Positions 4,890 to 6,361 of a DNA stretch of 64,000 bases are shown piece after piece. The position numbers were made by a program, and so were the translations under genes. Source of the DNA: an uncultured Lacinutrix sp. (GTDB lineage: Bacteria > Bacteroidota > Bacteroidia > Flavobacteriales > Flavobacteriaceae); the NCBI RefSeq assembly GCF_947500605.1, contig NZ_CANMSJ010000001.1, positions 310,001 through 374,000 of the forward strand. The letters run 5' to 3'. The notes beneath the pieces were generated by a model. That model ran no database searches. It saw nothing but the letters and a program-made list of their open reading frames with translations, and was not told where the DNA came from. Numbering within the stretch: position 1 is the first letter of the stretch; every line of letters starts with the position of its first letter.

Positions 4890-6197
4890 TTAATTAGAAC
4901 GTAATCGTAGTGGTTTAAAACTGATAAATAATAAGGTATATATAAACAATAATGCCAAATACCAAGTGTTAGAAACTAAATCTAAGTAATCTATTTTTCC
5001 GTTAGAGAAACTTAAAATCATTAAAACCTGTGCGCCATAAGGTAAAAGGCCTTGTGTAATACAAGCAAATATATCTAATATAGATGCTGTTTTTTTATTG
5101 TCTAAATCGTATTCATCATTAATCGTTTTTGCAATAGGACCAGCAATTATTATAGAAACCGTATTGTTGGCAATCGCCATATTAATGGTGCTTACTAAAG
5201 TTGCAATACCAAATTGTGCAGACTTTTTGTTTTTTATGAGTGTCTTAATTTTTAGAAGTATAAAATCGATACCTCCATTTTTTTTAACCAAAGCGGCTAA
5301 TCCGCCTGTAAGTAAGGACAGTAAGAAAATTTCCGTCATACTTGTAAAACCAGTATAGGCTATTTTGGTAGATTCAATAAGCGTAAAATCGCCATAAATT
5401 AGGCCTAAAAAGATACCAGAAATAACACCTAATAATAAGGTTACAAATACATTAACACCAAGTATAGATAGCGTAATAACCAATAAGTAAGGTGCTATTT
5501 TTATTACAGAATAACTATAGGCTACAGTTTCGGTTTCTACATCTTTTAAACCTAAACCTTGAATAATTAATATAGCAATGGTAAATAGGGCAGCAGGAAC
5601 GGCAATTTTAATATTCTGTTTAAATTTATCACTCATTCTACAGCCTAAAGACTGCGTGGCTGCAATGGTAGTATCGGAAATTACAGATAGATTATCACCA
5701 AACATACTACCGCCTAATAATGCGCCACAAAGTATCGCTAAATCTACACTACTTTTATCTGCAATACCAATAACAATTGGCGCTAAAGCAACGATGGCAC
5801 CAACCGATGTACCTGTAGACACCGATAAAAAACCAGCAATTATAAAAATACCAAAGTAAATGTATTGTATGTTAATATAATCTAACCCAAGGTTTACAAT
5901 AGCATCCACACTACCTGTTGCTTTTGTAATGGTCGCGAATGCACCTGCTAATAAATAGATTAAACACATGGTTAAAATCTTATCGTCACCACAACCTTTT
6001 AACAGCGTTTTAATTTTAGAATTTATAGATTGTCTAAACATTAAAAAAGCCACAATAATACCTGCTATAACTGCAATAGGAGCAGGTAATGCATAAAAAT
6101 CGTTTTGATAGATACCAACACCTAAAAACGTAAATACAAATACGAATAAGGGTATTAGTGCGCTAAATTTTGGAGTAATTGTTTTTGAATTTGCCAT
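4890..6197 (-). CDS. NhaC-family membrane transporter, possible methionine carrier (MetT-like)
   Basis: This is a 435-residue integral membrane protein with about ten or more hydrophobic segments. The conserved central stretch includes GTSVGAIVALAP and GGSMFGDNLSVISDTT, typical of the NhaC-type Na+/H+ antiporter superfamily. The family contains sodium/proton antiporters but also carriers proposed to import methionine (MetT). The leader holds a SAM-I-like RNA fold just downstream of a -7 box, which favours sulphur-amino-acid transport over sodium export. That is an inference from the leader, not from the protein. The gene is transcribed alone, convergent with the alcohol dehydrogenase. Confidence 0.85.
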   Translation of the reverse strand: MANSKTITPKFSALIPLFVFVFTFLGVGIYQNDFYALPAPIAVIAGIIVAFLMFRQSINSKIKTLLKGCGDDKILTMCLIYLLAGAFATITKATGSVDAIVNLGLDYINIQYIYFGIFIIAGFLSVSTGTSVGAIVALAPIVIGIADKSSVDLAILCGALLGGSMFGDNLSVISDTTIAATQSLGCRMSDKFKQNIKIAVPAALFTIAILIIQGLGLKDVETETVAYSYSVIKIAPYLLVITLSILGVNVFVTLLLGVISGIFLGLIYGDFTLIESTKIAYTGFTSMTEIFLLSLLTGGLAALVKKNGGIDFILLKIKTLIKNKKSAQFGIATLVSTINMAIANNTVSIIIAGPIAKTINDEYDLDNKKTASILDIFACITQGLLPYGAQVLMILSFSNGKIDYLDLVSNTWYLALLFIYTLLFISFKPLRLRSN

Positions 6198-6262
6198 TTT
6201 TCTTTTTTCATTTTAAAAAGGATATAGCAGCTTATAAGTAGAAATATGAGTTAACATTTGTT

Positions 6263-6340
6263 CCAATTAATTGGCTTATCTATTTAGCACCTTGCTCGTT
6301 ATTGCAGGTTGCTATCTCCTTTTTTGAGATTCTTGATAAT
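6263..6340 (-). promoter_or_regulatory. Compact SAM-I-like riboswitch candidate with expression platform
   Basis: Read on the minus strand, TTATCAAGA (ending the 5' side at 6339) pairs with GATAA at 6280-6276 to close a P1-like helix. Inside are a short hairpin ATCTC/GAGAT and a second hairpin carrying AGCAACCT and AGGTGCTAAAT, the P3 signature of SAM-I-type riboswitches, including the A-G mismatch position. Canonical P2 is much longer, and P4 is absent here. A palindrome CCAATTAATTGG follows immediately at 6274-6263, and a second AATTAATT lies at the 5' side of P1, so alternative pairing is possible. The element begins a few bases after the predicted transcription start. Confidence 0.65.
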
Positions 6341-6353
6341 TAATTTAAGAGCG

Positions 6354-6361
6354 CAAAATTA
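6354..6361 (-). promoter_or_regulatory. Bacteroidota -7 box (TAATTTTG) for the NhaC-family gene
   Basis: The minus strand reads TAATTTTG, matching TAnnTTTG. Transcription would start near 6347, which places the whole SAM-I-like fold inside the 5' leader. No clear -33 TTG was found. Confidence 0.5.

Follow-up and report, generated by a model that had tools for sequence, protein, structure and literature searches.

A SAM-I/IV riboswitch ahead of an NhaC-superfamily transporter gene in Flavobacteriaceae and its putative start-codon switch

In an uncultured Lacinutrix sp., the gene for an NhaC-superfamily transporter is preceded by an RNA element of the SAM-I/IV riboswitch class. We consider it probable that, when S-adenosylmethionine (SAM) is abundant, this riboswitch represses translation of the transporter, which is most likely a methionine importer. 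Comparison with related sequences establishes the aptamer, which consists of the helices P1, P2, P3 and P5 together with a pseudoknot of the P3 loop. The expression platform, we infer from folding predictions, is an alternative pairing of the spacer with either the aptamer or the start-codon region.

The window, that is, the whole stretch of 64,000 nucleotides that was analysed, was scanned with cmscan against all 4227 Rfam families. The single Rfam hit in these 64 kb was a full-length match to RF01725 (SAM-I-IV) on the minus strand, from 6344 to 6247 (model positions 1-99 of 99), scoring 62.2 bits against a gathering cut-off of 41.1, with an E value of 7e-08, and a genome search identified this element as the sole RF01725 match in its genome. 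From 5' to 3', the leader comprises a -7 box, P1, P2, P3, the return strand of P1, a palindrome, TGTTA, a U-rich spacer and the ATG at 6197 (Table 1). A plus-strand match to the miRNA family RF00747 (24.3 bits against a gathering cut-off of 50) is below threshold and was discarded; it reflects the complementarity between the strands designated A and B in the table.

Table 1. Features of the transporter gene and its leader in the window; strands A to C belong to the predicted expression platform
Feature	Coordinates	Strand	Evidence or partner
-7 promoter box TAATTTTG (Bacteroidetes TAnnTTTG)	6354..6361	-	conserved in orthologous leaders
SAM-I/IV riboswitch aptamer (RF01725), full length	6247..6344	-	cmscan 62.2 bits, gathering 41.1
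P1 5' strand UUAUC (TTATC)	6335..6339	-	98.6% of cells paired, 74 distinct rows; 4/5 pairs invariant
P2 5' strand AUCUC (ATCTC), without internal loop or kink-turn	6326..6330	-	99.7% paired in relatives
P2 3' strand GAGAU (GAGAT)	6314..6318	-	five pairs with 6326-6330
P3 hairpin AGCAACCUGC-AAUAACGA-GCAAGGUGCU, SAM-core nucleotides; DNA AGCAACCTGC...GCAAGGTGCT	6286..6313	-	99.8% paired
Pseudoknot strand UAACG (TAACG), P3 loop	6297..6301	-	pairs with 6252-6256
P1 3' strand GAUAA (GATAA)	6276..6280	-	pairs with 6335-6339
P5 hairpin CCAAUUAAUUGG (DNA palindrome CCAATTAATTGG), directly 3' of P1	6263..6274	-	RF01725 consensus structure; 97% paired in relatives
Pseudoknot strand UGUUA (TGTTA), 3' of P5	6252..6256	-	98.6% of cells paired; two pairs changed on both sides
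Strand A, aptamer segment AAAAAGGAGAUAGCA, predicted to be open to invasion by strand B	6310..6324	-	A:B duplex
Strand B, putative anti-aptamer / start-sequestering element UGCUAUAUCCUUUUU	6215..6229	-	complementary to strand A and start region
Strand C, start region AAAAAGAAAAAUGGCA, predicted to be sequestered by strand B	6192..6207	-	AUG pairing probability
NhaC-superfamily transporter, 435 aa, probable MetT-type methionine importer	4890..6197	-	PF03553

The association between aptamer and transporter was assessed in two samples. Of 400 family genomes, 29 yielded a gene for the transporter at E <= 1e-90. Every one of the 25 orthologs of at least 59% identity has RF01725 some 50 nt ahead of its start codon; the element is absent upstream of the four more distant homologs below 59% identity in this sample. 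The second sample consists of 80 loci from a protein-profile search of named Flavobacteriaceae genomes (among the genera Lacinutrix, Olleya, Algibacter, Zobellia, Maribacter, Cellulophaga, Winogradskyella, Bizionia, Gelidibacter, Gillisia, Arenibacter, Flavobacterium and others), which were searched with a covariance model derived from the sequences of the first sample. The element lies upstream of the transporter in 80 of 80 loci, one of them cut by a contig end, and the AUG follows the last position of the model by 38-63 nt. Some genomes are common to both samples, which are therefore not fully independent. Within the genus, all five genomes with an intact transporter carry the element. Another member, G005, retains only a C-terminal remnant of the gene (L056, G005:C39:80445-80957; query residues 263-433, one internal stop), and no RF01725 element was found in its genome, so that gene and switch appear to have been lost together. 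By these comparisons, the linkage of the aptamer to the transporter is strict.

The transporter matches PF03553 with 88.8 bits (gathering cut-off 23), and its score against TIGR00931, the NhaC equivalog, is 85.9 bits, far from the cut-off of 370, which makes a true NhaC Na+/H+ antiporter unlikely. MetT is a predicted methionine permease of the NhaC superfamily (PMC3228920, PMC4239095). Upstream of NhaC-family metT genes lie S-boxes in Firmicutes and MetJ sites in gammaproteobacteria (PMC2940859, PMC3228920), and SAM-I in particular precedes metT in clostridia and other Firmicutes (PMC2940859). The transporter studied here resembles MetT at the level of the superfamily and in the presumed logic of SAM-dependent repression, whereas control of MetT is exerted by the MetJ protein or by SAM-I RNA. 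Judged from regulation alone, methionine is most likely the substrate, a SAM-repressed methionine importer being the simplest reading. An earlier note on this DNA had proposed control of a possible methionine carrier, and the linkage of a SAM riboswitch to the transporter in 80 of 80 relatives speaks for that proposal. Alternatively, the aptamer could bind SAM while the transporter handles something else, such as Na+/H+ exchange or another sulfur-linked amino acid. The Pfam label names only a Na+/H+ antiporter family, and the superfamily takes in amino-acid exchangers such as ArcD (a weak match), but the low TIGR00931 score and the identity of the SAM-repressed NhaC-superfamily gene elsewhere, namely metT, leave this alternative with a minor, although appreciable, share of the probability.

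We next turn to the manner in which a SAM-repressed methionine importer would be switched off. Bacteroidetes mRNAs lack Shine-Dalgarno sequences, and structure at the start site lowers initiation (PMC6847099), so that hiding the AUG together with its A-rich flank would be a plausible OFF mechanism. With SAM bound, the aptamer would hold strand A (AAAAAGGAGAUAGCA), leaving strand B (UGCUAUAUCCUUUUU) to fold onto the A-rich start region and bury AUG-GCA, which would amount to a translational OFF state. In the absence of SAM, P1 would open, B would pair with A, and the start codon would be released. Because the start region AAAAAGAAAAAUGGCA mimics the aptamer strand AAAAAGGAGAUAGCA, one spacer strand could choose between the two. 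Neither a Shine-Dalgarno sequence nor a terminator would be involved in the switch, and in other clades B would target a different aptamer strand with the logic unchanged.

In the window, the A:B duplex comprises 8+6 bp with one mismatch (-14.4 kcal/mol), and the aptamer-spacer duplex is marginal (z -1.56, shuffle p 0.08). For the spacer plus start, the probability that the AUG is paired is 0.96, against a shuffled mean of 0.48. In equilibrium folding, the AUG is unpaired with a probability of 0.32 in the free leader and 0.29 with the aptamer, so that the two states are barely separated; since the AUG is not clearly freed when the leader is folded at equilibrium in the absence of the aptamer, a switch in the window would need co-transcriptional folding. 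For a set of 78 leaders, the z of the aptamer-spacer duplex relative to dinucleotide-shuffled spacers averages -2.88, with 87% below -1, and the mean probability of a paired AUG in the spacer plus start is 0.77 versus 0.53 for shuffled sequences (higher in 64 of the 78 leaders). Enforcing the aptamer makes the AUG less accessible in 22 of 26 leaders; because the leaders are related, these z-scores and counts are non-independent tests. The pairing in the window's own leader is weaker than that across the leader set, and the mechanism is thus better supported by the family than by the single leader of the window.

The aptamer strand that is predicted to be invaded differs among clades. In relatives belonging to Lacinutrix, Zobellia and Maribacter, a spacer strand B such as UUGCUAUUUCCUUUU is complementary both to the P2/P3 aptamer strand AAAAGGAGAUAGCAA (P2 3' plus P3 5') and to the start region AAAAGAAAUGGCAA. 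The spacer of Bizionia, Gelidibacter and Gillisia contains GAUUCU, which is matched to AGAAUC in J1/2-P2, and several Flavobacterium leaders contain UCGUGAUA or UCGUGGUA, matched to the P1 5' strand UUAUCACGA. We give roughly even odds to the general proposition that the transporter leaders of Flavobacteriaceae share a start-codon-based platform appropriate to a phylum without Shine-Dalgarno sequences, in which AAAAAGAAAAAUGGCA mimics AAAAAGGAGAUAGCA and the invaded aptamer strand depends on the clade. As a separate observation, an out-of-frame upstream ATG (ATGAAAAAAG; 6209-6211, minus strand) sits 14 nt ahead of the start codon, in what is predicted to be the loop of the start hairpin; several relatives (L003, L004, L031 and L033) have a similar ATG.

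A SAM-I/IV riboswitch could also act on transcription, through a terminator or Rho access, instead of on translation initiation. In Firmicutes, SAM-I works mainly by premature termination (PMC2940859, for metK and metT), but a search of the leader for an intrinsic-terminator-like structure found none, and the conserved alternative pairings extend to the start codon itself; we regard transcriptional action as improbable and retain translational repression as the preferred reading.

The class assignment bears on how the element had been described before. The earlier note placed a reduced SAM-I-like riboswitch at 6263-6361, with P1, the P3 signature, a five-pair P2, no P4, an adjacent palindrome and a -7 box. 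All of these features are present, on the minus strand, and the element is indeed an aptamer of the SAM-I superfamily in the leader of an NhaC-family transporter gene. It is, however, not a newly reduced SAM-I, since RF01725 fits it over its full length, and its span is slightly shifted, to 6247-6344, because the 3' strand of the pseudoknot (6252-6256) belongs to the element and the -7 box lies outside it. The note held that a full-length SAM-I hit would make the element ordinary; the Rfam scan yielded a full-length hit, which makes it ordinary by that standard, although the hit is to SAM-I/IV rather than to SAM-I. The leader element of the flavobacterial transporter is, on sequence grounds, a real and conserved member of this already described class, and the short uninterrupted P2 and missing P4 fit that class.

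The SAM-I/SAM-IV variants of Weinberg et al. (2010) combine features of both classes and differ from SAM-I and SAM-IV in lacking the P2 internal loop; metagenome sequences are their typical source (PMC2864571). The window element shares with them its sequence, the P1-P2-P3 core, the P2 without internal loop, the P5 hairpin, the pseudoknot between the P3 loop and the 3' flank, and the lack of a P3-P1 helix, which is absent in the Rfam model. In contrast to the published, typically metagenomic examples, the elements reported here come from named Flavobacteriaceae and precede one orthologous transporter gene, with the putative Shine-Dalgarno-independent start-codon switch as an additional feature. 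With SAM-I (S-box, RF00162), the element has the ligand-binding core motifs in common, but none of the P2 kink-turn, PK-1 (P2 loop with J3/4) and P4 that SAM-I possesses. The P5 hairpin and the P3-loop pseudoknot (PK-2) are shared with SAM-IV as seen by cryo-EM (PMC6890682). SAM-IV, however, has P2a/P2b and a second pseudoknot, PK-1, whereas P2 of the window is one uninterrupted helix with a loop of A's and one G, in which P2b has no room. The cryo-EM paper assigns SAM-I/IV a P4 relative to SAM-IV (PMC6890682). In the Rfam consensus of RF01725, no helix separates P3 from P1 and a single hairpin follows P1, a difference in naming; the window element, in which no hairpin occurs between P3 and P1, agrees with the Rfam model and not with the P4 naming.

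The same genome contains one canonical SAM-I riboswitch (RF00162; L002:1501-1622, contig C11), located before the gene for a metY-type O-acetylhomoserine sulfhydrylase. In the genus, SAM-I is present in 12 of 13 genomes, and SAM-I/IV with the transporter in only 5. A new minimal SAM-I variant, namely a canonical SAM-I minus kink-turn, PK-1 and P4, would account for the SAM-I core of the transporter leader, but this core is common to SAM-I, SAM-I/IV and SAM-IV (PMC6890682). The complete RF01725 score includes P5 and the P3-loop pseudoknot, both absent from SAM-I, and the RF00162 search of the genome lists the metY locus and no other. Such a variant is very improbable, and as a separate class it is ruled out by the end-to-end match to RF01725.

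Comparative sequence analysis further supports parts of the SAM-I/IV aptamer. In an alignment of 74 distinct rows, standard pairs occupy 98.9% of cells, against 19-42% when partners are slid by 1-3 columns. Two pairs of P2 have changed on both sides (UA to CG and CG to UA, 3 rows each), as have two of the pseudoknot (UA to CG in 9 rows; last pair AU in 34, GU in 23 and GC in 13). Covariation in the short P2 and P1 had been suggested as a check; compensatory changes are found in P2 and also in the pseudoknot, but P1 hardly varies, and since four of its five pairs never do, P1 provides no evidence either way. In an alignment of 29 sequences, UAUCAAG, AGCAACC and AAGGUGCU (the latter two in P3) and GAUAA are invariant, except for the last base of GAUAA. 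The nucleotides within these four motifs that we take to be the SAM contacts of the SAM-I structure are all present in the window, and conservation of the shared core predicts that the window aptamer binds SAM. The palindrome beside P1, formerly considered as the possible switch, is P5, a structural part of the aptamer, and the switch likely lies further downstream, at 6192-6229.

All but one of 27 transporter leaders contain TAnnTT[T/C]G at a distance of 7-16 nt upstream of UAUCAAG (the window has 15 nt), which confirms the -7 box noticed earlier just upstream of the element. TAnnTTTG is the flavobacterial sigma-A box (PMC9723704), and as this is the box of the phylum, generic sigma-70 matches in the leader were set aside. 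A chance look-alike or a decayed relic without function has a negligible probability and is ruled out by conservation, given the E value of 7e-08, the retention of the element by 80 of 80 relatives, the compensatory changes seen among them, and the conserved promoter box.

Aptamers related to that of the transporter leader were also observed in other settings. In two order-level relatives (L017:1501-1598 and L019:1501-1598), a group-A aptamer is followed by 1.5 kb that contain no NhaC gene; the first long ORF after it encodes a TonB-dependent receptor, and a spacer TCCCATCT matches the changed P2 strand AGATGGGA of these relatives. Within the family, RF01725 hits form two groups, the second of which, of the CAACCGAG...CCACGGTGG type, stands ahead of numerous small genes in Flavobacteriaceae that are unrelated to one another and have no known function (loci L195-L199 and L201-L234; for example, L196:8390-8484, L197:6876-6968, L199:7440-7536, L217:7607-7697 and L218:7956-8047). 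Ten of these downstream genes, compared with Pfam, gave no match above cut-off. In four second-group leaders (L013, L039, L102 and L105), inspection by eye revealed TCCTGATG or a similar sequence complementary to the P1 5' strand CATCAGGA; some of them also have an AUGCAU...AUGCAUUAUG hairpin that covers the start codon. This arrangement is suggestive of the same translational OFF logic.

Many second-group elements are located within mobile elements and in islands of defence or restriction-modification genes, with tyrosine integrases, VapE-like proteins, C5 DNA methyltransferases, type I restriction genes, DISARM DrmA/DrmB with Vsr, and MzaB/MzaC as neighbours. A PF00145 methyltransferase is encoded within about 7 kb of a second-group element in 6 of 30 genomes, compared with a chance expectation of 0.2, a rough estimate from genome-wide density; because methyltransferases cluster in such islands, these figures do not demonstrate a direct link, and the enrichment may reflect island clustering only. 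One could speculate that a SAM-OFF switch of the second group would activate the gene behind it once SAM declines, as might happen through a phage SAM-degrading enzyme. BLAST comparison of a second-group element with phage sequences gave chance-level matches only, one exact 25-mer had no occurrence in viral contigs, and, within the literature covered by one search, no paper linked SAM riboswitches to defence islands.

These results tie the little-studied SAM-I/IV class to a definite gene partner among cultured bacteria, namely a single transporter family that occurs in many genera of Flavobacteriaceae. The riboswitch class is known and the gene partner is well supported, and a start-codon switch that varies among lineages is plausible. 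The linkage to the riboswitch supports the assignment of the transporter to methionine uptake, and the leader makes riboswitch control in the absence of a Shine-Dalgarno sequence open to test. In the same Lacinutrix genome, a canonical SAM-I would serve a biosynthetic gene and a SAM-I/IV riboswitch would serve uptake.
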